64,000 nucleotides of DNA, taken from assembly GCF_004634425.1 (NCBI RefSeq), contig NZ_SBJL01000002.1:372001-436000 (forward strand), in the 5' to 3' direction. Position numbers and translations under genes: made by a program. Shown here in pieces: positions 23,434-41,921 of this stretch; position 1 is the first letter of the stretch; every line of letters starts with the position of its first letter. Under the pieces are notes generated by a model. That model made no database searches. It saw only the letters and a program-made list of their open reading frames with translations, and was not told where the DNA came from. Source of the DNA: Vitreimonas flagellata (GTDB lineage Bacteria; Pseudomonadota; Alphaproteobacteria; Caulobacterales; Aquidulcibacteraceae).

Positions 23434-23451
23434 CCTTGCGAATACGCAAGG
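23434..23451 (-). terminator. Short hairpin downstream of the 23505-23855 gene
   Basis: Perfect CCTTGCG (23434-23440) / CGCAAGG (23445-23451) with a 4-base loop AATA. It lies about 55 bases beyond the stop of the minus-strand gene. No T-run, so a weak candidate. Confidence 0.3.
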
Positions 23452-23504
23452 TCTCGCCCCTTCGAGCCTTGCTCCCTGACGCAAGTCTGGCGCGCGTTCG
23501 CGGC

Positions 23505-23855
23505 TCAGCCGTAGGGCGCCTCGTCGTCGGGACCGAGCTCTTCTTCATCATCATCGTCTTCGCGATAGGGACCGAAAGCCGACACGCGGATCATAGCGAG
23601 CGCGCCCTCGCCGATTACACGTCGTTCGGGCAGAGGCAGACGCTGCAGGCGAATGGCGAGCGCGATCGCCAATGCATACATGGCGTGCGAATTCTGTTCC
23701 TGATCCGAGCCCGAAAAAATACTGAGCACTGCTTCAATAGGCGAGATCAATCGCAGCACGCGCTCTCCGGCCGCCTCCGCAGGAACAGGCAGATCGTCGT
23801 CGCGGAATTCAAGCTCCATGCGCCGAACGATGCGCGCCAGAAACCAAAGAGGCAA
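23505..23855 (-). CDS. Acidic-tailed protein of unknown function
   Basis: A TTG at 23855 preceded by AAAGGA would give 116 residues. The internal ATG at 23819 (MELEFRDDDLPVPAE) gives 104 residues and cannot be ruled out. The middle is helical (ERVLRLISPIEAVLSIFSG and MYALAIALAIRLQRLPLPER), and the end is a run of acidic residues (REDDDDEEELGPDDEAPYG). It could be a small DNA-mimic-like or protein-binding factor, but nothing supports that beyond the charge. No family recognised. Confidence 0.45.
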   Translation of the reverse strand: MPLWFLARIVRRMELEFRDDDLPVPAEAAGERVLRLISPIEAVLSIFSGSDQEQNSHAMYALAIALAIRLQRLPLPERRVIGEGALAMIRVSAFGPYREDDDDEEELGPDDEAPYG

Positions 23856-24017
23856 TTTTTCCTTTGTTTCCTGGCTATTCCATTGCTTTCCGGATTCTGA
23901 CGATTGCTGAGAATGCAGCTAAGACGCCCATGATTGGATCATGCGCACGCCTAGCGATCGTGCGTCATCAACAGAGCTTTAAGTATCTGAGCGTCCCCTT
24001 CGGCCGAGGAGCTCAAA

Positions 24018-24509
24018 ATGCCGCCGCACCGATGGTCGGTCCTGCTTGCCATGGCCAACAAGTTCGACGCAGAGACCATCCAGGGCGTCTTGCGCAGCGC
24101 TGGCGTGACGCGCGCGCTTGCCGTTAGAGACGGCGATGAGGCCTATAAGCGCGCCGATACAACCGGACTTAATGTCATCATTCTATCTGAGGATTGCGCG
24201 CCCACGCCTGCGCTCGACTGGGTCAAGATGTTGCGCCGTGACACGCGCCATCAGGCGCGCGAAGCGGCGATCTTCGTCACATCACGAACACTCACGCTAT
24301 CTAAGGTCGAGGCCTGTCGCCGTGCCGGCGCCAACGCCATGATCGGTCTGCCGATCACCAGCAATTCGCTTATCAACACAATCACCAAAGTGCTGGCGCG
24401 CCCGCGTCCGTTTATCGAAACCGAAATCTATACCGGCCCCTGCCGGCGCGCAGGTATTGTGACGGCCGGCGCAGGGGCTCGCCGGCGCAAAAGCGACGCA
24501 GCTTCTTGA
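24018..24509 (+). CDS. Receiver-like protein lacking the phosphoacceptor aspartate
   Basis: The 163-residue protein from ATG 24018 (AGGAG at a good distance) has the CheY-like beta/alpha pattern at about residues 5-130. At the phosphorylation position (LNVIILSED, residues 51-59) Ser57 stands where Asp is expected, and the conserved Lys before the last helix is replaced (AMIGLPIT). The Thr/Ser in IFVTSR is kept. The tail RPFIETEIYTGPCRRAG resembles the GPDRR tail seen on some alphaproteobacterial receiver proteins. It probably acts without phosphorylation, through protein contacts. No kinase gene is nearby. Confidence 0.65.
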   Translation: MPPHRWSVLLAMANKFDAETIQGVLRSAGVTRALAVRDGDEAYKRADTTGLNVIILSEDCAPTPALDWVKMLRRDTRHQAREAAIFVTSRTLTLSKVEACRRAGANAMIGLPITSNSLINTITKVLARPRPFIETEIYTGPCRRAGIVTAGAGARRRKSDAAS

Positions 24510-24524
24510 GGACGCCGCGCTGCC

Positions 24525-25634
24525 CTACCCAGCCAAGCGGGTGAGACGTCCGAGCTTTTGATCCAGCAACGCAAAGAGATGATGCACCAGCGCTAAATCG
24601 TCGAATTGGTGCGCCAGACGCTCGACCTCGTCCAATTCAGCATCGCTCAAACAGGCAGTCGCCGCGCTTGGCGCTGCATGGAAGAGGCCCGTCGTAGACG
24701 TCGGCGACACGTATTCATAATCATCGAACAGCCGCTCACGGATTTTTTCGCCCGCGCGCGTTCCCGTCACTTTGAGTTCAATGTCGCGGCCGGAGCGTCG
24801 AATAAGTTCCTGCGCCATGGCGAGAATGGAGCGCGGCGCGCCCATGTCCACGAAATAGGCGCCACCAGCCGCCACAGTCTCAGCGTGCTCTGCTGCGCTC
24901 ACGCCGAGTACAAGATCGACGGCCTCGTCGTGCGACATGAAAAACCGCTCCATGTCGGGATGGGTAATCTCAACGGGACCACCCGCTTCAATCTGCGCTT
25001 CGAACCGCGGCAGGACCGAGCCGCTGGAGCCCAGGACATTGCCAAAACGCACAGAGCGCATGCGCATCTTTGAGCCGGCAAGCTGGCGACCGCCCAGATA
25101 AAGTTCGCCCAAGCGCTTGCACGCCCCCATGACGCAAACAGGTTCTGCCGCTTTGTCGGAAGACACGAAGGTAAAAGCGCTGACGCCCGCTTGCTCGGCC
25201 GCAGCCACCACATTGCGGACGCCCAAGAGATTTGTGCGCACGCACTCGCCGGGATGACGCTCGCCCATATGCACGTGTTTCAAGGCCGCCGCATGAATCA
25301 CGATGTCGGGACGTTCGCGCTCCATGATGCTGGTAAGGCGCGCGCGGTCGCGAATATTGGCAAGCGCCTCTACGACTCGGATTTGCCGTGCACGCCCGGC
25401 AGTCGCCTCGGCGACTTCGAGTAGCCCATGGTCGTGGTGGTCGAGCACAATCAGTGCTTCGCACTGGGAGTAAGAGAGACTTTCGGCCAGAGCCCGCCCT
25501 ATCGATCCGGCAGCGCCCGTGACGAGCACCTTCTTACCCGCCCACTGCACATTGCGCGCGCATGCGCCTCGCAACTCACTCAACCCCGCCCCCTTCGACT
25601 TTCCCGCAGGGATTGTATTGGAGGCCACATCCAA
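24525..25634 (-). CDS. Short CapD-type nucleotide-sugar 4,6-dehydratase
   Basis: A 369-residue soluble SDR resembling UDP-GlcNAc 4,6-dehydratases (FlmA/PseB/short WbpM). The nucleotide-binding motif GAAGSIG is at 40-46, HAAALKHVHMGE at about 115-125, VSSD160K161, and the CapD-type active site VMGACK173R in place of Tyr-x3-Lys. No membrane domain is present, unlike full-length WbpM. With the WbpV-like reductase (41028-41921) it could make UDP-QuiNAc. No ATG is available near the start: TTG 25634 and GTG 25628 are both possible. It is the last gene of the long minus-strand polysaccharide operon. Confidence 0.82.
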   Translation of the reverse strand: MDVASNTIPAGKSKGAGLSELRGACARNVQWAGKKVLVTGAAGSIGRALAESLSYSQCEALIVLDHHDHGLLEVAEATAGRARQIRVVEALANIRDRARLTSIMERERPDIVIHAAALKHVHMGERHPGECVRTNLLGVRNVVAAAEQAGVSAFTFVSSDKAAEPVCVMGACKRLGELYLGGRQLAGSKMRMRSVRFGNVLGSSGSVLPRFEAQIEAGGPVEITHPDMERFFMSHDEAVDLVLGVSAAEHAETVAAGGAYFVDMGAPRSILAMAQELIRRSGRDIELKVTGTRAGEKIRERLFDDYEYVSPTSTTGLFHAAPSAATACLSDAELDEVERLAHQFDDLALVHHLFALLDQKLGRLTRLAG

Positions 25635-25756
25635 AAGCGAGTCTTAGCAACATACGCACGGGAAATGTCGCATCTTGCACAAGCGGAGTGCGTCACGACC
25701 TTCTAACGTGCAACGCCAGAAATTATGTCACAAACCTAGCCGAAAAAGCGGAGCAG

Positions 25757-26260
25757 CTACTGAGGCACGCTCCAAACTACGTCGCCACCCTCAGAAATGT
25801 ATTGGGCGACGCCGGCATCCTCGACCCTCAGAGTGAAATTTCCGACGGGAGCCGACGAGCCGGAAGCCCAAACCGGCCGACCCTCATGGTCATAAATTAC
25901 GAGATTGCCATCCGCTTGCACACCCAAATGGCGAGTGCGGGGCGCGCCGCCAGAAGAATGCGAACTCCAGAGGATTGTGTCACCATCGGACCCTGGCTGA
26001 ATCAGTTCCAGATCGCCCGAAGAGCGCATGGTGAGCACAAATTGTGCATTTGGCGACACGATGCAATCGCCCGGAGTGAGCACGCCATTCGCGCCAGAGA
26101 CTGCAAGATGTGGCGCGCATTCAGCATAGGGCGCGACCGTCTCCGGAGATTCTTCAGGCGCGACCGGCTGTTGGTTACAGGAAGCAGCAAGGACTCCAGC
26201 CCCCAGCAACGCCAGCGTTAGCGGCCACTTTGACTTTCTTGAACTTTGTACCCGTTGCAT
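25757..26260 (-). CDS. Lipoprotein with a bulb-type (mannose-binding) lectin domain
   Basis: A 167-residue protein with an N-terminal basic region, a hydrophobic stretch and the lipobox L24-A-A-S-C28. The mature part (about 55-167) has the layout of a B-lectin domain: LTPGDCIVSPNAQFVLTM, a degenerate first site SSGDLELIQ, an intact sugar site Q115-A-D117-G-N119-L-V121-I-Y123, and a degenerate third site before VVWSVP. In plant lectins and lectin-like bacteriocins QxDxNxVxY binds D-mannose or D-rhamnose. Its start lies 43 bases inside the end of the upstream glycosyltransferase gene, so it belongs to the operon. It probably sits in the outer membrane. Ligand unproven. Confidence 0.8.
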   Translation of the reverse strand: MQRVQSSRKSKWPLTLALLGAGVLAASCNQQPVAPEESPETVAPYAECAPHLAVSGANGVLTPGDCIVSPNAQFVLTMRSSGDLELIQPGSDGDTILWSSHSSGGAPRTRHLGVQADGNLVIYDHEGRPVWASGSSAPVGNFTLRVEDAGVAQYISEGGDVVWSVPQ

Positions 26261-27486
26261 CGCTCAACCCCAGTTCCAGAGATCGCCCGCACGAACCGTT
26301 CAGGCGCAAACGCGCGCGCCGCATATTCAGCCGCGCGTTGTCCTATTTCCTCTCGGTATACTTTGTCACTACGCAACTTTTGTAACAATCGCGCAGCCTC
26401 TTGCTCATCGGGCTCAGCCCACACCTCGTCTCGATAGGTTGATTGAGGATCATTGACCTCAACCAACCGATAACCCACCGGGCATCCGTGAGCACTAGAG
26501 ACAAAATCTTTCGTGCCCGACCAATCGGTCACTATGACGGGCTTTCCTCTCAACATGGCCTCCGCAGGAACAAGGCCAAATCCCTCAGCACGGTGCAGTG
26601 ACAGCACCACATCGGACTGAGCATAAAGGTCATCAATCCCTTCGTCCGTAAGTGATGACTCCTGCAGTACAATATTCGTCGCACCGCCGATCGCGGCTTG
26701 CATTTGCCTGACCGCTTCCGGCCAATGCGAGGAATTACTGAACTGCACCAGAAGGGTAGCCGACGGATCGTCGCCAAAAGCCGTTTTGAATGCACGGATC
26801 GCAGCACAAGGATTCTTCCGTGCAAAGCCCGAAGCTACGTTGAATATTACCAACGCACGAAAAAAGCCATCCGCCACCCGATCGGCCTTTGAGCTGAACT
26901 TTATCGGCATCGGCACGACAGACACATCGCACGGGGCGCCAATTGCTTTGACGGCCTGTAAAACGAACTGAGAATTGACCCAAATCTCGTGGATGAACGG
27001 CAAGGCGACGCGCCATTCTTTGGGCAGGCGAGACAACTCCCAAAACCAGTGGGCTATTACGCGCTTCTCGCGCACCCACCGGCGGCCCAGCACGGCAATC
27101 GCAAGAGGCAAAAGGTCGCCACTAACGTGCATAAGCGCTGTGCCGCGCCCCTCAATCTTTCGCCCGTCGCGAAACTTGAACTGTGGAAAGTCCTCCTCGC
27201 ACATAAGGGCGCGCGAAATGTCTATTCCGTACACATCGAGACCCGCGTCACGCAGCGCATCGTGGCAGCTCCGCGCTACAGCTCCCAACCCACTAGCATT
27301 CCGCAACCGACCCACCACGATGATCGGCGACACCCTGCTCGCGCCGCGATCCGGCTTGGTGGCGAGCAACGTCGCTCCGCGCAGCAAAGCCCACCGCCGA
27401 AGTCTCTTGGGCAACCTGCGCCAAACTTGTTGATGTATAAATTGGGCAATTGGACGGGAGCTCGTGAACAAATCAAACGATCTCAA
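26218..27486 (-). CDS. Glycosyltransferase family 4
   Basis: A 422-residue GT-B transferase. The N-terminal half has VGRLRNASGLGAVARSCHDA. The C-terminal half shows the GT4 donor site: FNVASGFARKNPCAAIRAF, then LTDEGIDDLYAQSDVVLSLH and the E-x7-E motif in AEGFGLVPAEAML, followed by GKPVIVTDWSG. It would add a hexose to the growing chain; sugar and linkage are unknown. The start is a TTG at 27486 that overlaps the upstream methyltransferase gene by 14 bases. No nearby ATG exists, so the N-terminus is uncertain. Confidence 0.87.
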   Translation of the reverse strand: MRSFDLFTSSRPIAQFIHQQVWRRLPKRLRRWALLRGATLLATKPDRGASRVSPIIVVGRLRNASGLGAVARSCHDALRDAGLDVYGIDISRALMCEEDFPQFKFRDGRKIEGRGTALMHVSGDLLPLAIAVLGRRWVREKRVIAHWFWELSRLPKEWRVALPFIHEIWVNSQFVLQAVKAIGAPCDVSVVPMPIKFSSKADRVADGFFRALVIFNVASGFARKNPCAAIRAFKTAFGDDPSATLLVQFSNSSHWPEAVRQMQAAIGGATNIVLQESSLTDEGIDDLYAQSDVVLSLHRAEGFGLVPAEAMLRGKPVIVTDWSGTKDFVSSAHGCPVGYRLVEVNDPQSTYRDEVWAEPDEQEAARLLQKLRSDKVYREEIGQRAAEYAARAFAPERFVRAISGTGVERCNGYKVQESQSGR

Positions 27487-28720
27487 TCTCTGGAAACGGA
27501 AGAATTAGCTTTCCACCCGCCTCCAAGTATTTTTGCTCACGCCTGATGATCCCATCTTTGAAATGCCACGGGAGAACAAGTAGGTAATCCGGGTTCATAG
27601 CGCGCGCGTCTTGCTCAGACACAATGGGGATGTGCGTGCCCGGCGTGAAGCGCCCAAATTTTTCCTCGTTGACCTCTGCAATCGCTGGAATTTCGGTGGC
27701 GCCCAATCCGCAGAATTGAAGGAGTACATTCCCCTTCGTCGACGCTCCGTAGCCAAGAACCCTCTTGCCGTCCGCGACCAATCCCTTAACGAGCCGGCCA
27801 AGATCTTCTCGGTGACGAAACACGCGCTCTTCGAATTCGCGATACGGTCGCGGCGTCGAGAGGCCCATTCTGTCCTCTTGCTCAAGCAGCCAATTGATCA
27901 CAGGCAGATTCGGCTTGATGGACGTGTTGTCGCGCCGTACGGCAGTGACCGCAAAGCTTCCCCCGTTGATATTGTTCATCACTACATCGACGAGCTTCAT
28001 ATCTGCGGCATCAAGAATGCTCTGCACAACCTGAAGCGAATAGTACTCGACATGCTCGTGACAGATGGTGTCGTAGGAATTCAACCGAAGCATCGAGGGC
28101 ATGTAGCTCTGCTCGAAGTGCCAAACGCCGTCTCGATCAAGGATGTTTGCGATCTGACGTGCGAAAGAGATCGGATCTTCAAGGTCGTAAAACATCGCGA
28201 TCGAAGTAACGACCTTAGCCGATCGACTGCTCACCGACCGAAAGGCGTTCTCAGAGAAAAAGTCCGGGACGAGCTGCACGTCCGCCGGATAATACTTCGC
28301 GAACTTCCTTCCGGTTGGATCGATACCGATGCGGGTGAGAGAGGAAACCGAATAGGCGCGCAACGTAGTAGAATCGTTGCTTCCGATGTCGAGAACCACG
28401 TCACCAGGCGCCAGGCTCACCAGCCGCTCCAAGTACCTGACCTTTTGCGTCAGGTGATCGACCATCGACTGGTTTAGACCCGACCTATAGCCGTAGTTTT
28501 CGCCATACATCTCTTGTGGGGCGTATGAGTGCTTCAATTGGAGCAACCCACTGGAGGGCGACCAGACGAGCTCCAATGGGCCCACCGTCACGTTTTCACC
28601 TGTTGAGCGCGGGAACACCCCAGTCAGCGCCTGATGCCCCAGATTGAGCACGGAGATCAGATCGTTCCGACCACCCACGCGGCATCTTTCGATAGCAGTG
28701 TAGTTAGATGCCTCTTTCAT
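27473..28720 (-). CDS. Nucleotide-sugar C-methyltransferase-like protein
   Basis: A 415-residue protein of the three-part family (zinc-binding N-terminus, SAM domain, C-terminal domain) that includes the TylC3-type sugar C-3 methyltransferases. Seen: NYGYRSGLNQSMVDHL, SAM motif VVLDIGSNDST (108-118), the His-rich active-site stretch TICHEHVEYYSL, and GYGASTKGNVLLQF. The N-terminal zinc site is damaged: the first CxxC reads CRVG (Cys13 kept, Gly16), and the second pair is missing (LVWSPSSGLLQL). Its ATG overlaps the stop of the giant gene (ATGA). It probably methylates a keto-sugar for the surface glycan. Confidence 0.8.
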   Translation of the reverse strand: MKEASNYTAIERCRVGGRNDLISVLNLGHQALTGVFPRSTGENVTVGPLELVWSPSSGLLQLKHSYAPQEMYGENYGYRSGLNQSMVDHLTQKVRYLERLVSLAPGDVVLDIGSNDSTTLRAYSVSSLTRIGIDPTGRKFAKYYPADVQLVPDFFSENAFRSVSSRSAKVVTSIAMFYDLEDPISFARQIANILDRDGVWHFEQSYMPSMLRLNSYDTICHEHVEYYSLQVVQSILDAADMKLVDVVMNNINGGSFAVTAVRRDNTSIKPNLPVINWLLEQEDRMGLSTPRPYREFEERVFRHREDLGRLVKGLVADGKRVLGYGASTKGNVLLQFCGLGATEIPAIAEVNEEKFGRFTPGTHIPIVSEQDARAMNPDYLLVLPWHFKDGIIRREQKYLEAGGKLILPFPEIEIV

Positions 28721-31700
28721 GCGGAAACCCCATAACGTGTTCCGGTTACAACCAGGTCTGACTTCTTCAACGGCGCAAAAACGTCTTTCGGATCCTCTTG
28801 CGCAGCTGGCGCGCCGATCCCATGCGCCTTCTCATAAAGCGTGATCAACTCCGCCTCACATACCGTTCTGAACTCTTCTAAATGCGCAAATCGAGCTACC
28901 AACCTCGAGGGCGAGAAATATCGCGCGTTGCCCTCCGGATCAGTGTGCAAAATCTCTCTAAAATAGTGAATGACAGAGGGCAATGTATGCCGTCTCCATC
29001 CGTCCATCAGTGCTTGAGGCACACCACGAGCCTCGGCGACGTCGTAGACCTCTGGTATCCGTTCCAATATCCAAAGCGGGGCATATCTCATCCACGAGAC
29101 GTTCATGTTCACGACGACCTGCGGCTCCCCAATCCATACGGCCGGCTCCTCCATCATGTTGTTAAGGACATAATGGGTGGTTGGAATGCAGGTGAGCATC
29201 GTCGAGAACGGCCGTCCAACAGTACTTTGGGAGTAGGCGAGCCAAGCATGATCGCGGCGAAACACGAGCGTATAAATCGCGGTGAAGAAATTCTCGTTCT
29301 GGGCGCATACCTCTCTTAAGGTCGATGCAGCATCGGGCCCAGGCGCAACGATCGGCGTTGCCTCCCGAATGAACTGATCAAAGTCAGATACGCTACGAGC
29401 GTCTTCTGTGCGCGTGTACGCGTAGTTCAGATAGCAAAGAGCCACCCCCGGATTTGCGTCGATTGCCGCCAGAACCTTTTCAATTGCCCCGGGCACGAGA
29501 AGATCATCATCCCCCAGGATCCAAACATACTCGCCATTTGCGGCAAGTGCTGTCTCTCGAAGATTGCCCAACATACCGACGTTAACGGGATTGCGCACGT
29601 AGGTGAAATCTTCCCGCCCGAGGTACGGGGCGACTATCTCCGCCGTATTGTCGGTCGACGCGTTGTCACAAACAACAATTTCCACCTCATCGTGCGCGTT
29701 CGGCCACAAGCGACTCAAATTGGCCAAGGCCGCGGATAACCAGGACGCTCGATTGTACGTCGTTATACAAAGCGACAAGCGTGGGCGACGCGACGGCTCT
29801 ACAGCGAATGCCAGACCTCGAGATCGAACTGTCGCCGGCCTCGCTGCGAAACCCAAAACCGATGCGACATCGGACGCGTACTCGCACCAGCCACGTAGCG
29901 GTCGCGTGACCGCTTGTTCGGCAAGAGTCAATCTCAGTGCGGTGTTCTCCGCCATCTCCACCAGAGCCTCCGCCAACCGCCGCTCATCGCGAACATCGGT
30001 CTGCAAACAGCCTCCCTGCTCGGCAACCTCCGCCATCGCCCCAAAATTCGCGCAAATGCACGGCTTTCCAGCCCACAAGCTCTCCAGAATGGGAAGGCCA
30101 AAACCCTCCTCAATCGAAGGAAACACCGTGCATTGAGCGCGCGCGTAATGTTCGCGCAGTTGCCGGTCATCCGCTTCGGCAAACCAATACACATTTGGTG
30201 TCGCGGCGATGAGAGCCTTTACGCGTTCGGAGAGAACAGCATCGAGGGCATCTTCGCGCCCCACGATGGTCAAGCGAAGGCTGCGCCTTGAATTCTCCCG
30301 CGCAATGGCGAAGGCCTTGAGCAGAGTTTCGTAGTTCTTTCTGGGCTCTAAAGTACCGACCGCCAAGATGTTGATATCGTCGGACTCGATCGCTCGGACC
30401 TCTGTGGTCCGACTCGTCTCCGGGAATTCTCCCGCCAACTCAACGCCTACAACTTTTGCCGCGTCGCTGGCGCCGAGATCGAGAAGATCTACGAAGTCGC
30501 GACGCGACCAATTCGAAATTGGCATCACGACGTCGTACTCGCTCAGCACACGCATGTAATTTTGGTGCGCATTCGCGTAAGCGCCCGAGTAAATGCTGCT
30601 GAGCTTCCATGGTATCGCATCGTAAAATAGACATGCGGTGCGCAAGCCGTGATCGAATGCATGCGTCCGAAGCAGCTTCTGGTGAGCCATTGAGAAGGCG
30701 AGAGGCAGTTCGGGCATGAGGAAGACGCTCCCCGCCGGCGCTGCACCTAGATCCGACCACTCGGCCCACGCGTCTACACGCGGACCGTTCCACTTCTGGA
30801 GATGCAGAAGATCTTCGTGACTGGCGCGTTGAAAGACTTGAGCCTCACCCGCCCAAACCACCGGAATGACCCGAAGACCGAGGTCGAGCAAATGCTTCGC
30901 CAACATTCGAGTGACGCGCTGTATCCCTGTATTGCTCCCGAATGCCCGCGTTGCCTCTACCCAATAATAGATGATTGATTCGGACGATGCCGCCTGAAGG
31001 CCTGTATTGATCATCAATGCCGTCGCGAAACGATCCCAGGTCTGGAGTGGGCGCGCTGCGGCCTCGGCGCTAAGCGCCTTCAGCAGCGAAGGCTCCTCTA
31101 TCAATCTCTCTAGCGCGTGTTGAATCGTATCGGCATTGCGGACGTCTATTGTGAGACACCCCCCGCCACGCGCAACTTCCGCCATCGCGCCAAAATCGGC
31201 ACAGATGCAGGGTCGCGCGTGCCAAATGCTTTCCAGGATCGGAAGACCGAATCCCTCCTCAACCGATGGAAACACGGTGAACGCGCAGCGCTGATACAGC
31301 GCAACCAACTCATCATCCGTCGGTACGCCAAGATATTGTATCGACGGACCCAATGCGCCGCGAAGCTCTTCGCTTACGTCTGGATGCAGATTTCCAACGA
31401 GCACCAAGCGCCAACCGCACGTGGGCTTTTCCTGCAACATCTGCGAAAATGCTCGGACAAGCGTAAGCTGATTTTTGCGCGCCTCGATCGTGCCCACACA
31501 TAAAACCAAGTTCTCGGTGACATCCGCCTCGACCGATCGAGCAACATCAAATGAAGCGCCCGGCAGGTGCAGGGTCGTCACAACGGGCATGGTCGCCGGC
31601 TCCGCCAGATCGTTCTGGCGCCAGTACTCGATGAGGTCCGCATGCACATGATCCGAGATGGGCCAAACCGCGTCGGCCAAGCGCAACAACGACATGTACT

Positions 31701-34644
31701 CGGCATGAATGGGCGCGAGGGCCGCGAACTCGGTGCGCTTGATTGGTATCGCATCGTAAAATGTGAAGCCGCAGCGAATTGAGGCGTTTCGAACCCAGCG
31801 CAAGAGGTCATTGGTGACCTGTTGCGCGTGGTAGGTAATGTGCGTGACCTCAGGCACCAACAGCCATGTCGATGAATTTGATTGGGCCAATTGACCACCA
31901 AGCAACCCGTAAAACCGACGCTCCTCCTCTGCGACCGAGGGACCGTTCCACTCAGCCAGGTGCAAACGCTCTTCAAGGGAGATGTACACACAGGCGCGCA
32001 TCGCAGCGTCCCACCGGACGAAGCGCACGTCGCGCGCGACGGCTAGCATACTTGACGAGAGTCCGCGTACGACGCGCTGCACCCCCGAGTTTACGGGACA
32101 GCGCACGGTGTGATCCACAAAGATCAGATACCTGACCACATTAGGCGCTAGATCAATCTCCGATCTTGAAGCCATGGCTGGCGTTGGCGTGATGGCGGCC
32201 ACTTCGGTCGGCGAGGGACCTCGGTCGTGCAGAACGATCGCCACCATTCGCCGCTTCAACGGCGGAAGCAGATTCAGCACGGGTCGCAGCACGGTCCGGA
32301 GGATTGGCCGACGCAACACCATATTTGACATCGAGAGTACGCCATATCGTGCAATACGACGCGGACGAACCCCTGGGCGCATTGTGAGCCAAGCCCACCC
32401 GCCGCGCGTGACCAGGCGAGCCAAGTTCTTTGCGAAACGCATCGGTGCAGTCAGTCGCCACGACGTTGAGTTACGCATTGCCTCGAGGGCGCCTTGTACT
32501 TGCCTGACCTGCAACTCCAAGCTCTTCGCCCGCGCTGCCGCTGTATCGGCGTCACCACGCGCCACGTTCAACGCGTGCTCCAACGACGCCAGTTCAGCGT
32601 TTCTGTCCGCTACCTCGCGCTCGCGCGCATGCAAATCTGCCCTCGCCGCGATCAATTCCTCGCTGTGGGCAGCAGCACGTTGGATCGCCAGTTGATCGAT
32701 ACGTTCGAGCTCCGCGCGCAAGCTCTGGGCGAGCCCCTCGGCCTCAACAAACTTAGCACGCAGGACCACAAGCTCCTGGCGTAAGGCATTAGAATCTTTC
32801 TCGTACTGGTCACGTGCTGTGGAAACTTGGCCTAACTGCTCAACCAAAGAAGCCTTTTCTACGCCAGCGGCATCAACCGACGCTGCGAGGGATGAGGCAC
32901 GTCGAAGCTCGGCGTTCAGGAGCTCCTGCGTCTGCGCCAAATGAGCAGCATGCTCTTCGGCTTGTCGAGCGCGCATTTGAATCGCTGCGTTAGCGGCCTC
33001 CAGCTCCGCGTTCAGCGAACTAATGGCCTTATCTCGCACCTCAATCTCATGTTTGTCGGCGTTTCGCTGAGCTAATGCAGATTCAAGTTGATCGGCAAGT
33101 CGCTCCCGGCGCTCTGTTTCTTCAGCAAGCGCAGCTGCAAGAGCTAGACCATCCCGCTCAAGGCTCTCGCTCACGCCTTGATGAGTAGCGATGGCCGAAT
33201 TAGCCGCGGCCAAAGCCTGCTCGACACGCTCAATGTATGATTGGCAATGGTTCGAGAATTCCTCCACCTTCAACAAGAGATCCAACATGGCTGGATCGCT
33301 CGATAGGTCCCTTGTCTGCTCGGTCAACGCACGCTGAAAATCGCGAAAAGAGCGCTGCGCAGGCCAGGTGCGCACCAGTTGTAAGGCGGGCTCACGGAAG
33401 GCGCGAGGAAGGGCCAAGGGGTAAAGCAACAATGGCCTAATTGAGTGAGATCGCGGCTGCGCTCCAAGCGCGAGCTCCCTCACGAACATCAGAAATGCCA
33501 GAAAGACGTCGCTGGGCGGAACGCAATCCTTCCGCGACTCGCTTATCGAGCCGAAGTCGATCAAGCGCGCCTTCCCTGTTCTATCTATCAACACATTCCA
33601 GGCGCGCAGATCGCCATGGTAAAGTTCATTGGCCTCCAACAACGTCAAGTCAGCCAGTACTTCCCTAGCCACCTTCTCTGCTGAATACGGACGTCCCTGG
33701 GCAATTATCGTGTCAAGCAGGTCGCCTTCTATCAGTTCACGTACAATCCAGGCGGCGTTGTTCGACCTGCCATGCGACACAAGCCCTGGCGCCTGAAAGC
33801 CATCCGGTGGGTCCGACAAAAAGCTGATCTCGTTACGCCACTCTGAGATGTTCACATCACTCAGAGCAGGATGGTCGAGAGCATAGGTCTTCGCAACGAG
33901 TGCATCCGAGAAATAGTAGCGCCGCGTGCCTTGGTGCACGAACGGTGCGTTTGAGTTTGAGTACGGCAACCACCTTTTGAATTCCTGCGCCTCATCCCCA
34001 AGATACCAGGCGCGATTGCTCGCAAACATGAGCGGCCGGCTCACGGACGAAAGGTGTGTGTCAAATCTCGCAATCTCCCGGACAAAAGCGTAGCTAGTTA
34101 GGAACTCCCGCGCATCCGGCGGCAGCGATTGCGCCCAATAAAGCGGCTCTTCTGCTGAAGCAAACTCGTATAGCCCCACCAGACTGCTCGATGAAATCTG
34201 ACGCAACAGCTCGTTGACAAAACCTGAGCCTCGCCCGTGTGCGATGTGGTGAAACACACTAAGGCCCAAAACAAGATCATAGTCACCCGCGCGCAAAGTC
34301 GGGACCAAGTCCTCGATTGAACGAAGCTCAAAGGAGACATCTAGTTCTGGTTGCTCCACTGCAAGCGCGTTGCAGAGGGCGATATTCGCTTCCAACGTGT
34401 CGACACCGCTGACACTTGCACCCAATTTGGCGAGGTGCAGGCTAAAAAAGCCCTGCGCACAGCCCAGATCCAAGACCTTGAGCGGACGCGCCAACATGCG
34501 CTCCAGCGCAAGATAGACCTGAGCAACGCGCTCAAGCCGATCCCAACACCCTCGCGATGTCGCCGCAGAGTGCTCCGGATGCTCAAAGATGGGCTGGTAC
34601 ACCTCCGGGAGCGAGCGCACGAGTTCGTCGATTCGATGCGTCAT
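28717..34644 (-). CDS. Giant fusion: methyltransferase-kinase-coiled coil-GT4-GT4-GT2 (WbdD/WbdA-like)
   Basis: One uninterrupted 1975-residue frame from ATG 34644. Residues 1-215: SAM methyltransferase (VLDLGCAQGFF, 57-67). About 245-440: protein-kinase-fold domain with Lys252, H343-G-D345-L-R-A-W-N350 and D363-F-G. About 455-735: coiled coil. 728-800: basic, partly amphipathic stretch that may touch the membrane. About 836-1215: GT4 with GTIEARKNQ and E1130-x7-E1138. About 1223-1600: second GT4 with GTLEPRKNY and E1513-x7-E1521. About 1620-1900: GT2 with D1660 and the D1712-D-D1714 motif. The first three parts match WbdD, which caps E. coli O9a chains and sets their length; tandem GT4 domains match WbdA. 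It starts one base after the wzt stop. Expected role: polymerise, measure and cap the O-polysaccharide at the inner membrane. Confidence 0.85.
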   Translation of the reverse strand: MTHRIDELVRSLPEVYQPIFEHPEHSAATSRGCWDRLERVAQVYLALERMLARPLKVLDLGCAQGFFSLHLAKLGASVSGVDTLEANIALCNALAVEQPELDVSFELRSIEDLVPTLRAGDYDLVLGLSVFHHIAHGRGSGFVNELLRQISSSSLVGLYEFASAEEPLYWAQSLPPDAREFLTSYAFVREIARFDTHLSSVSRPLMFASNRAWYLGDEAQEFKRWLPYSNSNAPFVHQGTRRYYFSDALVAKTYALDHPALSDVNISEWRNEISFLSDPPDGFQAPGLVSHGRSNNAAWIVRELIEGDLLDTIIAQGRPYSAEKVAREVLADLTLLEANELYHGDLRAWNVLIDRTGKARLIDFGSISESRKDCVPPSDVFLAFLMFVRELALGAQPRSHSIRPLLLYPLALPRAFREPALQLVRTWPAQRSFRDFQRALTEQTRDLSSDPAMLDLLLKVEEFSNHCQSYIERVEQALAAANSAIATHQGVSESLERDGLALAAALAEETERRERLADQLESALAQRNADKHEIEVRDKAISSLNAELEAANAAIQMRARQAEEHAAHLAQTQELLNAELRRASSLAASVDAAGVEKASLVEQLGQVSTARDQYEKDSNALRQELVVLRAKFVEAEGLAQSLRAELERIDQLAIQRAAAHSEELIAARADLHAREREVADRNAELASLEHALNVARGDADTAAARAKSLELQVRQVQGALEAMRNSTSWRLTAPMRFAKNLARLVTRGGWAWLTMRPGVRPRRIARYGVLSMSNMVLRRPILRTVLRPVLNLLPPLKRRMVAIVLHDRGPSPTEVAAITPTPAMASRSEIDLAPNVVRYLIFVDHTVRCPVNSGVQRVVRGLSSSMLAVARDVRFVRWDAAMRACVYISLEERLHLAEWNGPSVAEEERRFYGLLGGQLAQSNSSTWLLVPEVTHITYHAQQVTNDLLRWVRNASIRCGFTFYDAIPIKRTEFAALAPIHAEYMSLLRLADAVWPISDHVHADLIEYWRQNDLAEPATMPVVTTLHLPGASFDVARSVEADVTENLVLCVGTIEARKNQLTLVRAFSQMLQEKPTCGWRLVLVGNLHPDVSEELRGALGPSIQYLGVPTDDELVALYQRCAFTVFPSVEEGFGLPILESIWHARPCICADFGAMAEVARGGGCLTIDVRNADTIQHALERLIEEPSLLKALSAEAAARPLQTWDRFATALMINTGLQAASSESIIYYWVEATRAFGSNTGIQRVTRMLAKHLLDLGLRVIPVVWAGEAQVFQRASHEDLLHLQKWNGPRVDAWAEWSDLGAAPAGSVFLMPELPLAFSMAHQKLLRTHAFDHGLRTACLFYDAIPWKLSSIYSGAYANAHQNYMRVLSEYDVVMPISNWSRRDFVDLLDLGASDAAKVVGVELAGEFPETSRTTEVRAIESDDINILAVGTLEPRKNYETLLKAFAIARENSRRSLRLTIVGREDALDAVLSERVKALIAATPNVYWFAEADDRQLREHYARAQCTVFPSIEEGFGLPILESLWAGKPCICANFGAMAEVAEQGGCLQTDVRDERRLAEALVEMAENTALRLTLAEQAVTRPLRGWCEYASDVASVLGFAARPATVRSRGLAFAVEPSRRPRLSLCITTYNRASWLSAALANLSRLWPNAHDEVEIVVCDNASTDNTAEIVAPYLGREDFTYVRNPVNVGMLGNLRETALAANGEYVWILGDDDLLVPGAIEKVLAAIDANPGVALCYLNYAYTRTEDARSVSDFDQFIREATPIVAPGPDAASTLREVCAQNENFFTAIYTLVFRRDHAWLAYSQSTVGRPFSTMLTCIPTTHYVLNNMMEEPAVWIGEPQVVVNMNVSWMRYAPLWILERIPEVYDVAEARGVPQALMDGWRRHTLPSVIHYFREILHTDPEGNARYFSPSRLVARFAHLEEFRTVCEAELITLYEKAHGIGAPAAQEDPKDVFAPLKKSDLVVTGTRYGVSA

Positions 34645-34645
34645 T

Positions 34646-35929
34646 TTAGGTGACCTCGAAGGAAGCGCGCATATCGAAGACCCCCCAGAACCCCATCGGC
34701 CGGTCCACCGCCACCATCACGGAATCGTACCTCCGGTCGAGTGGCGCGAGATTCTCGACCGGCCCAGAAGAGACGCCAAAGGAGACCAGGTAATGGCCAG
34801 CATTCAGATCCAGCGGAAGGCGGAATCGAAATACCTTTCGCTCGCCAGCAGAAGCTCGCATCGCGCTTTGCCCGCGGCTCGCCAGGAAGCTGTTCGTCCC
34901 ATAAATGAATAGGCCATCAAGGCCTTTGACGAGAATTCCGGGCGTAACGCTTTCAAAATCCCGCTCAAACAACACCGAAAAGGAGAAGTCGACGTTCGCA
35001 TTGCTAGGCAAAGTTGACGGAAACTCTTCACCGTCGACCGTGATGAGATAGTCGACAATCTTAGCGCCTCCATTGCCCCAACGATGCTCCTCCTTCCGAT
35101 AGCCAGGGCGCTGATCAAAGACATCAGCCCCCATGCTCAGTCGGTCTGCGGCGGCGCTACCCGGGGCAACATTCACTTCCTTCAGGTCCCGTTCGCCGTG
35201 GCCGAACAATTTGTCGAGATACAAATTGCAAGCGTCTCGCGGGGCGCCGACAAACGCTTGCGTTCCCTTATCAAGCAGAAGCGCAACATCCGCATGGCGA
35301 ACAACATCGCTGACCGCGTGAGTGACCAGAAGTAACGTAGTCCCCTGTTCGCGAAAGGATGCGATGCGCTCGAAACACTTCGCCTGGAAATATGGATCTC
35401 CAACCGACAAAACTTCGTCGACGATCAGCACATCCGGCCGAACAGCCGTGGAAAGAGCAAACGCGAGTCTCGCCTGCATTCCCGACGAGTACACCCTCAG
35501 CGGCTCGTCAATATATTCACCAATCTCAGCGAAATCTTCGATGCCGGGTAGCAGCCGCAAAATCTCGCGCCTCGGAAATCCCATCATTCCGCCAGCTTGG
35601 AAGAGGTTCTGCCGCCCAGTTAACTCCGCACTAAACCCCAGCCCTAACTCAAGCATGGCGCTCACACGGCCCGAAACGCCGACGGAGCCGATCGTGGGGC
35701 GCACGGTTCCCGCGATTAACTTGAGCAAGGTGCTTTTGCCTGCGCCGTTGCGTCCAAGTATCGCGAGCGAGGCGCCGCGTCCCACATCCAGCGTGATGTC
35801 CCGCAACACCCAATGACTCGCCGACGGCGCAACACGGGCGCCAAACCAGCCAGCAAACCGATGAAGGTTTGAGGCGTAGGAATCGTAGCGTTTCCCGACG
35901 CCGCTCAGACTGAGAGCAAGCGGTCTCAC
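34646..35929 (-). CDS. wzt: O-antigen ABC exporter ATPase with C-terminal extension (Wzt)
   Basis: A 427-residue ATPase that energises export of undecaprenol-linked O-polysaccharide. Walker A is GRNGAGKST (59-67), the ABC signature YSSGMQARLA starts at 147, Walker B is VLIVDE (167-172), and the switch His is 204. The extra C-terminal part (about 270-427), ending with RFRLPLDLNAGHYLVSFGVSSG, fits the Wzt carbohydrate-binding domain that recognises the capped chain end in O9a-type systems. The start is GTG at 35929, overlapping the wzm stop (GTGA). The presence of that domain agrees with a capped, length-controlled chain. Confidence 0.93.
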   Translation of the reverse strand: MRPLALSLSGVGKRYDSYASNLHRFAGWFGARVAPSASHWVLRDITLDVGRGASLAILGRNGAGKSTLLKLIAGTVRPTIGSVGVSGRVSAMLELGLGFSAELTGRQNLFQAGGMMGFPRREILRLLPGIEDFAEIGEYIDEPLRVYSSGMQARLAFALSTAVRPDVLIVDEVLSVGDPYFQAKCFERIASFREQGTTLLLVTHAVSDVVRHADVALLLDKGTQAFVGAPRDACNLYLDKLFGHGERDLKEVNVAPGSAAADRLSMGADVFDQRPGYRKEEHRWGNGGAKIVDYLITVDGEEFPSTLPSNANVDFSFSVLFERDFESVTPGILVKGLDGLFIYGTNSFLASRGQSAMRASAGERKVFRFRLPLDLNAGHYLVSFGVSSGPVENLAPLDRRYDSVMVAVDRPMGFWGVFDMRASFEVT

Positions 35930-36711
35930 AGGGCGTCAACCAAATCTGCGCTCGCGCGCCGGAACACGAACAGCGCCACGATCAGAACCAGGGTCGCAAT
36001 AGCTGATGCGATGGCGAACTCCGCATTTGTTGGGAAGCGGCCATAAAGCATCGCGCCTTGGTAAAGCTGCACTAGCGGTGTCATCGGATTGGCTTGCATT
36101 AAGGGCAAGAATTGTGCGGGCACGCTCTCCAGGAAATACGCAATTGGCGTCAACCAGAACCACAACTGAAGCACCACTCCAACGAGTTGCGCGACGTCCC
36201 GCTCGAACACATTCAAGGTCCCGAGGATAAGACCAAGCCCGATTGCGAAAGCGCTTATGAGAATTATTCCAACGGGGATAATCGCCCACGCGATGGTTAA
36301 AGGATGCCCCAAGAGCACAAACAGACCACCCACGGCTAGAAGCAAAAGCACATGGTTGAAGATTGCCCCGCCACAAACAATCAACGGCAAGCTGATGCGT
36401 GGAAACGCAATTTTCTTCAGTGCGTTTGAGTAATCGAGAAAAATCGAAACGCTTCGTGTCAAAATTTCTGAGAACAAGCCCCAAGCCGCCAGCCCAGCCA
36501 TAAGGTAGACTGGGTAGGCGGTGCGATCGTCGATTCCAGGCACCCGGGCACCCAGCACCTCGGCGAGGATCAAAGTGTAGATTGCGGCCTGCGCGAGAGG
36601 GTGAAGAATCGACCAGACCAATCCAAGCTTGGACCCGGCGAAGCGCGCTCGCACGTCTCGAACGATAGAGGCCCAAATGAAATGCCTGTATCTCCAAGCA
36701 GCGGCTAACAC
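35926..36711 (-). CDS. wzm: O-antigen ABC exporter permease (Wzm)
   Basis: A 261-residue ABC-2 type membrane protein with about six hydrophobic segments. It opens with a cytoplasmic amphipathic stretch (FIWASIVRDVRARFAGSKLGLVW) typical of Wzm/KpsM/TagG permeases. The NPMTPLVQLYQ motif lies before the last helices, as usual for the family. It forms the channel with Wzt for the polysaccharide. Its start overlaps the end of the rmd gene by 7 bases. Confidence 0.93.
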   Translation of the reverse strand: MLAAAWRYRHFIWASIVRDVRARFAGSKLGLVWSILHPLAQAAIYTLILAEVLGARVPGIDDRTAYPVYLMAGLAAWGLFSEILTRSVSIFLDYSNALKKIAFPRISLPLIVCGGAIFNHVLLLLAVGGLFVLLGHPLTIAWAIIPVGIILISAFAIGLGLILGTLNVFERDVAQLVGVVLQLWFWLTPIAYFLESVPAQFLPLMQANPMTPLVQLYQGAMLYGRFPTNAEFAIASAIATLVLIVALFVFRRASADLVDAL

Positions 36712-37661
36712 GCACCACTCCTTGAGACTTTCTGTCGCGCAGACGCCAACACATCCGCGAGCGTGTCATCGAAAGCGACCTTCGGACGCCAGCCCATCGT
36801 AGTTGATGCACGCGAAGCATCGCCAACGATACGCATCACCTCATCTGGGCGAACCCGCAATGGGTCCTGCTCAATGCGAACTGGGATTTCACTCATTTCA
36901 AGAAGCGCGTCCAAGATGTCGCCAATGCGCCTTGGAGCACCCGACGCGACATTGAAAATTGCGCCTTGATCGAGGCTATCGCTCAATTCAATTGAACGAA
37001 CGTAGCAACTCACAACATCCCTAACGTCGAGAAAGTCTCGCTCCGCGAGCAAATTGCCCACCCGCATTGTCGGCTCAGATAGCCCCGCCTCAATTCGAGC
37101 AATCTGCCCCGCAAAATGAGGAACAACAAAAGCTTCACTCTGACCTGCGCCAGTGTGGTTAAACGGACGCATCCTCAGGACGCGAAGACCGCGACGGACA
37201 AGCGCCCCTAACGCGAGGTCGGCCGCGGCCTTTGTAACTGCGTAGTCATCGGCGGGCGCCAGCGGCGACCCCTCGTGGTAACCGAATTGGGGACAATCGG
37301 CATCGCCGTAAACCAATCCAGAACCCACCTGGATGAGACAACATTGCGGTGCGTCGGTCAGAATGGCATTCGCCAAATTGAGCGTACCAAAAACATGAGT
37401 ACGCCAAGCGCCGTCGGGATCAGCACGCGCATCCGAAGCGGATGCGATCGCCGCAAGGTTCACTACGTGCGATGGCCGATACTTTCGCAGCGCAGCTCTC
37501 ACGCTTTCGAAGTTATCAATGTCCAGAGAGACTATCCCTGGTTCGAGGCCTGAGACATCGGCCCTAGAGGTCGAAATGACTTCCACGCTAGGCGCCGCAC
37601 TCAGCGCCTCACAGAGATATCGGCCTACAAAGCCGCTCGACCCGGTTACAAGGACACGCAT
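36705..37661 (-). CDS. rmd: GDP-6-deoxy-D-mannose reductase (Rmd), GDP-D-rhamnose synthesis
   Basis: A 318-residue SDR that reduces GDP-4-keto-6-deoxy-D-mannose to GDP-D-rhamnose. The NAD(P) motif GSSGFVG is at residues 7-13, Ser114 lies in VGSGLVYG, catalytic Y140-AVT-K144 follows, and the Rmd-typical RPFNHTGAGQ is at 165-174 before SEAFVVPHFAGQIARIEAG. That last stretch separates Rmd from fucose or perosamine pathway enzymes. It is separated by 7 bases from gmd. Product: the activated monomer for a D-rhamnose-containing glycan. Confidence 0.88.
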   Translation of the reverse strand: MRVLVTGSSGFVGRYLCEALSAAPSVEVISTSRADVSGLEPGIVSLDIDNFESVRAALRKYRPSHVVNLAAIASASDARADPDGAWRTHVFGTLNLANAILTDAPQCCLIQVGSGLVYGDADCPQFGYHEGSPLAPADDYAVTKAAADLALGALVRRGLRVLRMRPFNHTGAGQSEAFVVPHFAGQIARIEAGLSEPTMRVGNLLAERDFLDVRDVVSCYVRSIELSDSLDQGAIFNVASGAPRRIGDILDALLEMSEIPVRIEQDPLRVRPDEVMRIVGDASRASTTMGWRPKVAFDDTLADVLASARQKVSRSGAC

Positions 37662-37668
37662 AGCGCGC

Positions 37669-39906
<2,238 letters not shown>

Positions 39907-39907
<1 letters not shown>

Positions 39908-41031
39908 CACGCTTCGCTCACAGTAGCCCAGGCACGCGCAGCCGCGTCGCCAGCGTGCAACACGCTGTAACCGGAAACCACGCGCAGGCGACCTAATGCG
40001 CCCATGCGCCGACGTATTCCCACATTCATCGCCAACATTCGCAGCGCAGTCGCCAATTCGACAGCGTCCCCCGGCTTCACAAGAAGGCCGATCTCGTTTT
40101 CACCAACGAAGTCAGCACAGCCAGGCGTTCGCGTTGTCACGATTGGACGACCACAAGCGGCGGCCTCTATGAGCGAACGCGGGAGCCCCTCGCCACCAAG
40201 CGATGGCAGACATGCTATGTGGGACAGGGACCAGAATGCGTTGACGTCCTGCACATGGCCGATGAACTCAATGCCGTCCAACGTGCTCCAGCAGTGCAAT
40301 TGTGCAGCGCTGATACTCTCAGGATTTTGGTCGTCCGGGCGCCCAGCGACCCGTAGAACGATGGAAATTCCCTCAGCGCGCAATCGCCTGACGGCCTCCA
40401 CAGCCACACCAACGCCCTTTGAACGAACAAGGCGAGCGACTACACCAACGACAAGCGGATCATTGGTAGGTTCCGGCGCAACTTTGAACTTGTTGAGGTC
40501 GACGCCGGCTCCAGGCATGAGCACGACCTTCCCAGCCCCCAGCCGCTCGTCGTGCGCCACCCAGTCTGCATCACTCATATTCTCGACCAAAAGGAGCGTT
40601 TGCGGCTGGGACAGCGCACGACGGATGAGGCGACGCAAGCGCCAACGGATCAATCGAGTCCAGGGCGCGCTTCCGAGCGCTATATAGCCCCGTCCAGTTA
40701 GCGCCAGTATTTGCGCGACACCCCGCATACGAGCCATCACGAGTAGGACTATCGACTTAAGGGCAATCGCGTGAACGATGCGCGGCCGCTCGCGGCGGAT
40801 GATCGCGCGCACTTGCAGCGCTTGTTTGATCAATGCCCAAGGCGCAAAAGAGCGACGGCGAAACGGCAAATCGACCAATCGTACGCCCTCAAGGTTAGGC
40901 ACCGCGCCGGTGTTGCGCGCAACCACGACGCACTCGTAGCCTTCACGAATTGCGCGCTCCACCAAGAACATGAAGTGCGATCGAAAGAACCAATCCTCGG
41001 TCACCAAGAAGAGAAGTTTGGGCTTGATCAT
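39907..41031 (-). CDS. Glycosyltransferase family 4
   Basis: The ATG at 41031 overlaps the previous gene's stop (ATGA) and gives 374 residues beginning MIKPKLLFLVTEDWFFRSH. This group (also IVHAIALKSI and ALTGRGYIALGS) is common in LPS clusters, often beside a WbpV-like reductase. The donor half has VGVVARLVRSKGVGVAVEA and the E-x7-E motif in GGEGLPRSLIEAAA, followed by GRPIVTTRTPGCADFV. It may act early, on the adaptor sugar. Substrate not known. Confidence 0.87.
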
Positions 41032-41921
41032 ATGCGCGCCTTCCATGCACGCGCGGTTTGCGTGAGCAACGCGACAGCGTTCGTTGGTGGCAGATCATAT
41101 GCCGAGCGAAAGGCGCTATCGTCGATTGCGAGACTTTCGGTGAGCGTGTCTGGGCCGAGCGTCGCGATCCACGGCGCGGCGAAGAGATTGGACTTTCGAC
41201 CGAGCCCTTCACGCACAGCACCGATGATCTCCCCCGTTGAGAGCGCCGGCGCGTCGGCGAGGTGAAACACTCCAGCGGGCCCGTCGGGCTTTGCCAACAG
41301 AGCCCGTATCGCCGCGATGAAGCTTGAAAGCGCAAGCACGCTGCGCCGGTTGCGCACGTCTGCGTACGGCAGCGGCAGCGGCGTATCGGCAAGGCGCAAC
41401 AAGTTTGCGAAATTCGCCTTCGCACTTGGCCCGTGCACAAGTGGCGGGCGCAGAATGATCGGTCGCAAAGTCGGATGCTTCCGCACGGCAGCCTCGGCCG
41501 CCAGTTTTGCGCGACCATAGGCGTCGCCTGGCTGCGGCGTGCCCGCCTCCACAAGCGCATGATTACCATAGGTTCGCGGCGCGACAGCCTTGATAGAGCT
41601 GACATAGATGAACCGCGACACGCCCGCGGCTTCCGCTTGCGCGACAAGCGCGCCCGTGGCGTCAGAAATTTGCGCCTTCAATTCATACTCGGCGAAGCGC
41701 GCGTGCGCGGGGCCGGCAAGATGGACCACGGTGTCGACGCCCTCAAGCGCTGCGCGCCAATTGGTCTTTGCGCTCAGGTCGCCGACGATTACGTTCTCAA
41801 CCCCCGGCAACGCGAGCGGCATACGCGACACCCCGCGCACGCAAGCGCCGCCGTCCACCAGAGCCGACGCGAGCGCGCTGCCGATGAAGCCCGAAGCTCC
41901 GGTGACCAATATGCGCGCCAT
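41028..41921 (-). CDS. WbpV-like nucleotide-sugar 4-keto reductase/epimerase
   Basis: The start ATG at 41921 gives 297 residues beginning MARILVTGASGFIGSAL. It belongs to the WbpV/WreQ branch of extended SDRs: YVSSIKAVAPRTYG, the YGRAKLAAE catalytic pair, and the characteristic LRPPLVHGPSAKANFANLLRLA...LPLPYADVRNRRSVLAL. WbpV reduces UDP-4-keto-6-deoxy-GlcNAc to UDP-QuiNAc. The matching 4,6-dehydratase is at 24525-25634, the other end of the locus. QuiNAc is a common first (adaptor) sugar of rhamnan-type O-antigens. The initiating transferase itself is not in the window. Confidence 0.8.
   Translation of the reverse strand: MARILVTGASGFIGSALASALVDGGACVRGVSRMPLALPGVENVIVGDLSAKTNWRAALEGVDTVVHLAGPAHARFAEYELKAQISDATGALVAQAEAAGVSRFIYVSSIKAVAPRTYGNHALVEAGTPQPGDAYGRAKLAAEAAVRKHPTLRPIILRPPLVHGPSAKANFANLLRLADTPLPLPYADVRNRRSVLALSSFIAAIRALLAKPDGPAGVFHLADAPALSTGEIIGAVREGLGRKSNLFAAPWIATLGPDTLTESLAIDDSAFRSAYDLPPTNAVALLTQTARAWKARI

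Follow-up and report, generated by a model that had tools for sequence, protein, structure and literature searches.

A WbdD-type terminator and a putative GT4-GT4-GT2 polymerase share one open reading frame in Vitreimonas flagellata

Background

In Escherichia coli O9a the polymerase and the terminator of the O-antigen are two separate proteins. The length of the O9a chain has been credited to the length of the coiled coil of the terminator WbdD and to the occupancy of the polymerase site on that protein (PMC11231755), and a model based on the abundance of WbdA and WbdD is cited in PMC4878081. A long open reading frame of V. flagellata, which appears to carry both functions, lies in a stretch of 64,000 nucleotides (NZ_SBJL01000002.1, positions 372,001 to 436,000) that we refer to as the window.

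Results and discussion

The gene and its operon

The initial annotation of the window proposed one frame of 1975 residues at 28717..34644, composed of a methyltransferase, a kinase, a coiled coil, two GT4 domains and a GT2 domain. The frame is present as such: it lies on the minus strand (34644 to 28717), which the initial annotation left unstated, starts with ATG and counts 1975 codons without an internal stop. The position directly behind wzm-wzt was correct as well, as a single base separates the wzt stop from the ATG, and at its 3' end the gene shares four bases with the start of a C-methyltransferase gene. All listed domains were recovered, by Pfam, by the match to WbdD and by the heptad model described below. 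Pfam placed the methyltransferase at residues ~55-150, two GT4 stretches (the best at 1417-1578) and the GT2 domain at 1624-1748; its protein kinase match (293-369, 29.9 bits) lies slightly below the cut-off of 31.7. The modules are arranged as follows:

34015..34644, minus strand: WbdD-type methyltransferase domain, residues 1-210 (Pfam methyltransferases; WbdD alignment with R36, D82, H132, H133 and R203 kept)
33280..34014, minus strand: WbdD-type sugar kinase domain, residues 211-455 (Pkinase just below cut-off; catalytic residues kept, Y230 and R270 lost)
32470..33279, minus strand: predicted coiled-coil ruler, residues 456-725 (proline-free 452-733; heptad model; weak SMC profile match 445-724)
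32140..32469, minus strand: SxSWRxTxP motif and WbdD-like C-terminal tail, residues 726-835, presumed membrane-proximal (motif in related loci)
31000..32139, minus strand: GT4 domain A, residues 836-1215, EX7E at 1130-1138 (Pfam, motif, homologues)
29845..30981, minus strand: GT4 domain B, residues 1222-1600, EX7E at 1513-1521 (Pfam, motif)
29065..29793, minus strand: GT2 domain, residues 1618-1860, GDDD at 1711-1714 (Pfam, motif, 70% identity to Oricola)
28717..29064, minus strand: C-terminal extension of the GT2 module, residues 1861-1975 and stop (kept in Oricola, locus L040, and in locus L089)

A search for homologues with the identical module order returned a protein of 1859 residues with all modules in Oricola cellulosilytica (L040), encoded in a corresponding operon. 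This recurrence of the full order makes chance or misassembly very unlikely. A frameshift or assembly artefact was ruled out, since Oricola carries the same modules in one frame. The genes surrounding the fusion gene in the window are:

34646..35929, minus strand: wzt, with C-terminal carbohydrate-binding module (PF14524; module 264-424 matches 2r5o, E 1.5e-57)
35926..36711, minus strand: wzm (PF01061; 56% identity to Oricola)
36705..37661, minus strand: probable rmd, GDP-6-deoxy-4-keto-mannose reductase (SDR families only; adjoins gmd here and in Oricola)
37669..38673, minus strand: gmd, GDP-mannose 4,6-dehydratase (TIGR01472, 438.6 bits, cut-off 415)
27473..28720, minus strand: sugar C-methyltransferase (PF08484, PF08421; 77% identity to the Oricola neighbour; synteny; distribution)
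26218..27486, minus strand: GT4 protein, possible adaptor or early transferase (Pfam)
38840..41046, minus strand: two GT4 proteins (38840-39910, 39907-41046), possible adaptor transferases (Pfam)

The order gmd, rmd, wzm, wzt, fusion gene, C-methyltransferase gene is common to the window and Oricola, with identities of 79, 50, 56, 61, about 50 and 77%, respectively. Beside the cluster, four open reading frames (22512-23015, 23436-23900, 24018-24509 and 25562-26221) gave no Pfam match at 0.001 and may be non-genes, and an O-antigen ligase-like (Wzy_C) protein, below the Pfam cut-off, is encoded nearby at 43595-44767.

The terminator half

Residues 1-417 match the crystal structures of E. coli O9a WbdD with an E-value of 2.8e-98 and 41% identity. 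We compared 12 residues, which are those discussed in the consulted sections of the WbdD structure paper (PMC3482155), and ten proved identical. Five of these (R36, D82, H132, H133 and R203; window numbering) correspond to the SAM- and phosphate-site residues of WbdD, and the other five (D345, W349, N350, D363 and E268) are the equivalents of the kinase catalytic-site residues D351, W355, N356, D369 and E274. All are invariant among 42 aligned rows, except E268, which is found in 38; the rows represent the window and 41 of the 62 related loci described below, broken, cut and near-identical loci having been dropped by eye.

The two remaining residues, the acceptor contacts Y230 and R270 of WbdD, are replaced in the alignment by N230 and V264. 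A Y230F exchange abolished the activity of WbdD in vitro (PMC3482155). Across the 42 rows position 230 varies (His in 28, Tyr in nine, Asn in four and a gap in one), and Y230 is therefore no family-wide feature. The four rows with N230 are those of the window, Oricola, an Afipia metagenome-assembled genome (MAG; L042) and Aurantimonas (L059), which form a supported clade (97/94) in the tree of the terminator domain; L089 is outside that alignment. With both contacts replaced, the acceptor would therefore differ from that of WbdD, and we read the pattern as a changed acceptor rather than a dead kinase. The terminator has its catalytic residues intact, and catalytic activity on its own acceptor is predicted rather than proven.

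The coiled coil and the junction

Residues 452-733 contain no proline. In the heptad model, which scores residue preferences, the stretch 456-725 obtained a positive score (z 8.0) that was reached by none of 1000 shuffles; the coils of two stand-alone WbdDs scored z 7.6 and 10.0. All eight control stretches of the same protein scored negative, five of them lying modestly above their own shuffles (z 2.1-2.9). In a cruder hydrophobic-moment test the coil scored z 1.9, a value matched by 13 of 500 shuffles, whereas one of two controls reached z 2.3. As this test failed to separate the coil from that control, the assignment rests on the heptad model and the composition. Residues 445-724 also match the SMC profile weakly. 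We predict that a WbdD-like C-terminal coiled coil is present.

Behind the coil lies a motif, SxSWRxTxP, that is shared with 25 of 56 related loci (>430 residues). From this motif to the first GT4 domain the window protein has ~110 residues, and the stand-alone WbdDs that carry the motif end 19-146 residues past it. Since the motif and the tail match the ends of stand-alone WbdDs, the fusion looks like a whole WbdD followed by a polymerase. The length from the conserved F433 to the motif is 293 residues in the window, 159 in Oricola, 184 in Afipia and 165 in L089, and ranges from 104 to 297 among those stand-alone motif proteins that were aligned. The homologous rulers of the window and Oricola are thus 134 residues apart, or about 19 heptads and about 20 nm.

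The polymerase half

The EX7E motifs of both GT4 domains (at 1130 and 1513) and the GDDD/DxD motif of the GT2 domain are present, and they are kept in Oricola and L089. The initial annotation had compared the GT4 pair with WbdA of E. coli O9a, which has two GT4 domains as well. This part of the fusion reading did not hold, although the joining of a WbdD-type terminator via a coil to a multi-GT polymerase did: identity to WbdA is 27-28% over partial stretches only, and the GT4 domains represent a separate lineage, with 30-37% identity over whole domains to separate, also GT2-bearing, polymerases of Rhodovastum and Azospirillum. Orthology of the GT4 pair to WbdA was ruled out, as these separate alphaproteobacterial proteins are closer over the whole domains. 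A profile search of the GT half against solved structures gave no matches at an E-value of 1e-15.

Between the window and Oricola the modules share 52% (terminator), 48% (GT4 A), 50% (GT4 B) and 70% (GT2) identity. Among the 62 WbdD-like loci the GT2 profile was found in L040 and L089, besides a weak match in L090. The conservation of the GT2 domain together with the adjoining C-methyltransferase favours a C-methylated sugar over an adaptor as what this domain may add.

Relatives and the history of the fusion

Scanning one genome per species with two short peptide patterns, an approach that misses diverged WbdDs, yielded the 62 WbdD-like loci; since those are missed, three fused among 62 is no frequency. 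Intact fusions other than that of the window were found in two of them, Oricola and the Afipia MAG. The latter (L042:10004-14770; 1588-1608 residues, depending on the start codon) combines a WbdD-type terminator with two GT4 domains but lacks a GT2 domain; its GT4 domains are of another kind, and it is perhaps an independent event. In an alphaproteobacterial MAG (L089:916-6550) the same order occurs in a frame of 1688 residues that is broken within the terminator region, either by a sequencing error or because the gene is dead. In-frame stops within the WbdD match were also seen in Sodalis and Xanthomonas (L070, L092, L097 and L101), which maybe are decayed genes.

In the terminator tree (L070, L092, L097, L100 and L101 left out, L089 represented by its first 255 residues only) the four fused rows require three label changes: the window, Oricola and Afipia share a clade that excludes L089 and takes in the unfused Aurantimonas. 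One fusion with later loss and several fusions are both possible, and a single origin is unsupported by the tree.

For 52 of the 62 loci the gene directly downstream of a stand-alone WbdD could be tallied; the fused L040 and L042, loci with stops (L070, L089, L092, L097 and L101) and those at a contig end (L064, L096 and L100) were set aside. The neighbour encodes at least two GT4 domains in 21 loci, a single one in 15 and none in 16, two of the last (L093 and L095) having less than 1.2 kb of downstream sequence. As 21 of 52 adjoin a gene with at least two GT4 domains, the fusion joins natural neighbours.

The GT half can be found without the terminator in a plasmid-encoded protein of Rhodovastum atsumiense (L102:7345-11277; 1310 residues), which has the order GT4, GT4, GT2 (GT2 51% identical); a C-methyltransferase gene (68%) lies upstream, with one gene between. 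A GT4-GT2 protein follows gmd and a second SDR gene in Azospirillum thermophilum. Both halves, as predicted from their domains, occur as separate proteins elsewhere. No plasmid record matched the fusion along 80% of its length.

At an E-value of 1e-15 the WbdD domain turned up once in 299 genomes sampled from the order and once in 398 from the phylum, and at 1e-12 once in 385 from the class; in these overlapping samples it was always the genome of the window itself. The GT2 module likewise was found in one of 385 genomes, again the same one, and a Xanthomonas class sample gave the WbdD domain in one of 350, the centre genome itself. That the fusion is common in relatives was ruled out by the restriction of the WbdD domain to its own genome in the samples of 299, 398 and 385. 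The cluster coincides with a stretch of lowered G+C content (55-60% between about 25 and 40 kb, mostly 60-65% outside), which, together with the absence of the gene from the sampled relatives, suggests that the cluster was gained horizontally. Compared with plasmid records, the transketolase of the host is closest to copies from rhizobia, Afipia and Paracoccus (59-62% identity), which weakly indicates an alphaproteobacterial host.

Sugar supply, export and the proposed mechanism

We think it probable that the single chain builds its O-chain from GDP-D-rhamnose and that the coil determines the length at which a methyl phosphate cap is added. The GDP-D-rhamnose would be made from GDP-mannose by Gmd and the probable Rmd. 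Located at the membrane end, the GT4-GT4-GT2 part would use it to extend an undecaprenol-linked chain, to which the GT2 domain perhaps adds a C-methylated sugar. The coil, which as in WbdD is probably a trimer, would position the methyltransferase-kinase at its distal end. When the growing chain has become long enough to arrive there, its terminal sugar would be phosphorylated by the kinase and the methyltransferase would then methylate the phosphate, stopping growth. The cap-binding domain of Wzt would select the capped chain for export.

With respect to the sugar, Gmd passes a curated cut-off, but the probable Rmd matches SDR families only, with no equivalog or named model above cut-off; GDP-D-rhamnose is for this reason likely, still short of established. 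The protein might instead be the polymerase-terminator of a mannan or mixed glycan, with gmd and rmd serving the sugar of the GT2 domain or another glycan. Apart from the reductase, which no curated model identifies, this would fit the ManC-like and phosphomannomutase-like genes in the window and the action of O9a WbdD and WbdA on mannan (PMC3482155). We nevertheless consider a mannan or mixed glycan unlikely, because gmd and the SDR gene stand immediately before wzm-wzt in the window and Oricola alike, the same pair precedes wzt-wbdD in Aurantimonas, separated from it by a transposase gene, and the GT4-GT2 polymerase gene in Azospirillum, and the acceptor residues are unlike those of the mannan enzyme.

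A relative of the C-methyltransferase was present in two of 65 loci (the 62 WbdD loci and three plasmid loci), Oricola L040 and Rhodovastum L102, both of which encode a GT4-GT4-GT2 protein. This distribution suggests that the GT2 domain and the C-methyltransferase may share a substrate, a C-methylated 6-deoxyhexose, which is the weakest step of our reconstruction. It could be taken further: if the GT2 domain adds this sugar last, the true cap acceptor would be the C-methylated residue, and GT2, kinase and methyltransferase would form a relay within one chain. Besides gmd, the GT2 domain (70%) and the C-methyltransferase (77%) are indeed the best conserved between the window and Oricola, compared with 48-50% for the GT4 domains. 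Such a relay seems doubtful to us, since N230 is not tied to the GT2 domain (the unfused Aurantimonas and the Afipia fusion have N230 without this GT2 type), and no relative of the C-methyltransferase was found in the L089 and Azospirillum (L103) sequences, which have the same GT2 type and are short or end nearby.

Among the best 60 of 389 matches of the Wzt carbohydrate-binding module, 2r5o, which we take to be the cap-binding module of O9a Wzt, ranks first; it is also the best match of an E. coli Wzt that carries an O9-family annotation (E 2.1e-114). Wzt thus keeps a predicted O9a-like cap-binding domain, which fits with ABC export of a capped O-chain. That the terminator half is degenerate, the coil a mere scaffold and the length set otherwise, is highly improbable in view of this domain and of the nine catalytic and phosphate-site residues invariant in 42 rows, in spite of the two changed acceptor residues and of examples of ABC-transporter export without capping, such as the Haemophilus influenzae b capsule (PMC11231755).

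Comparison with known systems

In the fusion of a methyl/phosphate type of terminator to its polymerase the initial annotation claimed too much, as a methylphosphate terminator fused to polymerase modules has been published and tested (ORF6 of Klebsiella pneumoniae O7; PMC11231755), and a methyl terminator fused to GT domains has been published for WsaE (PMC2943079). The terminator half has a homologue in the WbdD of E. coli O9a and Klebsiella O3, a methyltransferase-kinase-coiled coil protein (41% over 417 residues), which is separate from the polymerase and has Y230 and R270, whereas the fusion has Asn and Val and a long ruler (293 residues). The protein of the window is not separate from its polymerase, and this difference is architectural rather than one of domain family.

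O7 ORF6 also combines methyltransferase, kinase, coiled coil and GT modules (methyltransferase-kinase-coil-GT2-GT2); its terminator forms methyl phosphate in vitro (Kelly et al. 2024, PMC11231755), and the joining of its orthologues to GT modules varies (PMC11231755). It differs in its AmiN-like kinase, which has no recognised kinase domain and is unlike that of WbdD in sequence and structure, in the presence of a CBM and of two GT2 modules, and in requiring a separate ribofuranosyltransferase, as described in PMC11231755; the Pfam matches of the fusion protein are to a protein kinase, two GT4 domains and one GT2 domain, with none to a CBM. WbbB of Klebsiella O12 and Raoultella terrigena likewise has polymerase, terminator and coiled coil in one chain (PMC11231755). 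Its terminator is a Kdo transferase and its GT domains belong to other families; the N-terminus of the fusion is a methyltransferase-kinase and not a Kdo transferase. WsaE of Geobacillus stearothermophilus, encoded beside wzm-wzt, has an N-terminal methyltransferase and two GT domains and caps a polyrhamnan; in the consulted sections of PMC2943079 no kinase is described, the cap is 2-O-methyl on an S-layer glycan, and methylation in vitro is independent of chain length.

Single-chain polymerase-terminators (O7 ORF6, WsaE, WbbB) are therefore already known. New are the fusion of a WbdD-class terminator to a GT4-GT4-GT2 polymerase and the occurrence in nature of two homologous rulers, 293 and 159 residues long. 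In the open-access texts consulted we recognised neither a WbdD-class terminator fused to its own polymerase nor anything relevant on the LPS of Oricola. In Pseudomonas syringae the fourth gene of a wzm-wzt operon has been called a glycosyltransferase, likely wbdD (PMC12608077); it may be another terminator-GT fusion.

Conclusions

Provided that the chain stays uncleaved, the covalent link fixes the ratio of terminator to polymerase at 1:1, and chain length would be set within one molecule. The occupancy factor invoked for O9a would therefore be removed. It is conceivable, if rather unlikely as a whole, that an alphaproteobacterial family of single-chain D-rhamnan enzymes exists with a fixed ratio, in which the length of the chain depends on that of the coil alone and the built-in GT2 domain supplies a C-methylated terminal sugar that receives the cap. 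The homologous natural rulers of 293 and 159 residues make the ruler idea testable without engineering, at a fixed terminator-to-polymerase ratio. For the modular evolution of O-antigens, the fusion is a case of a separately existing terminator and polymerase being merged into one gene where they often are neighbours.
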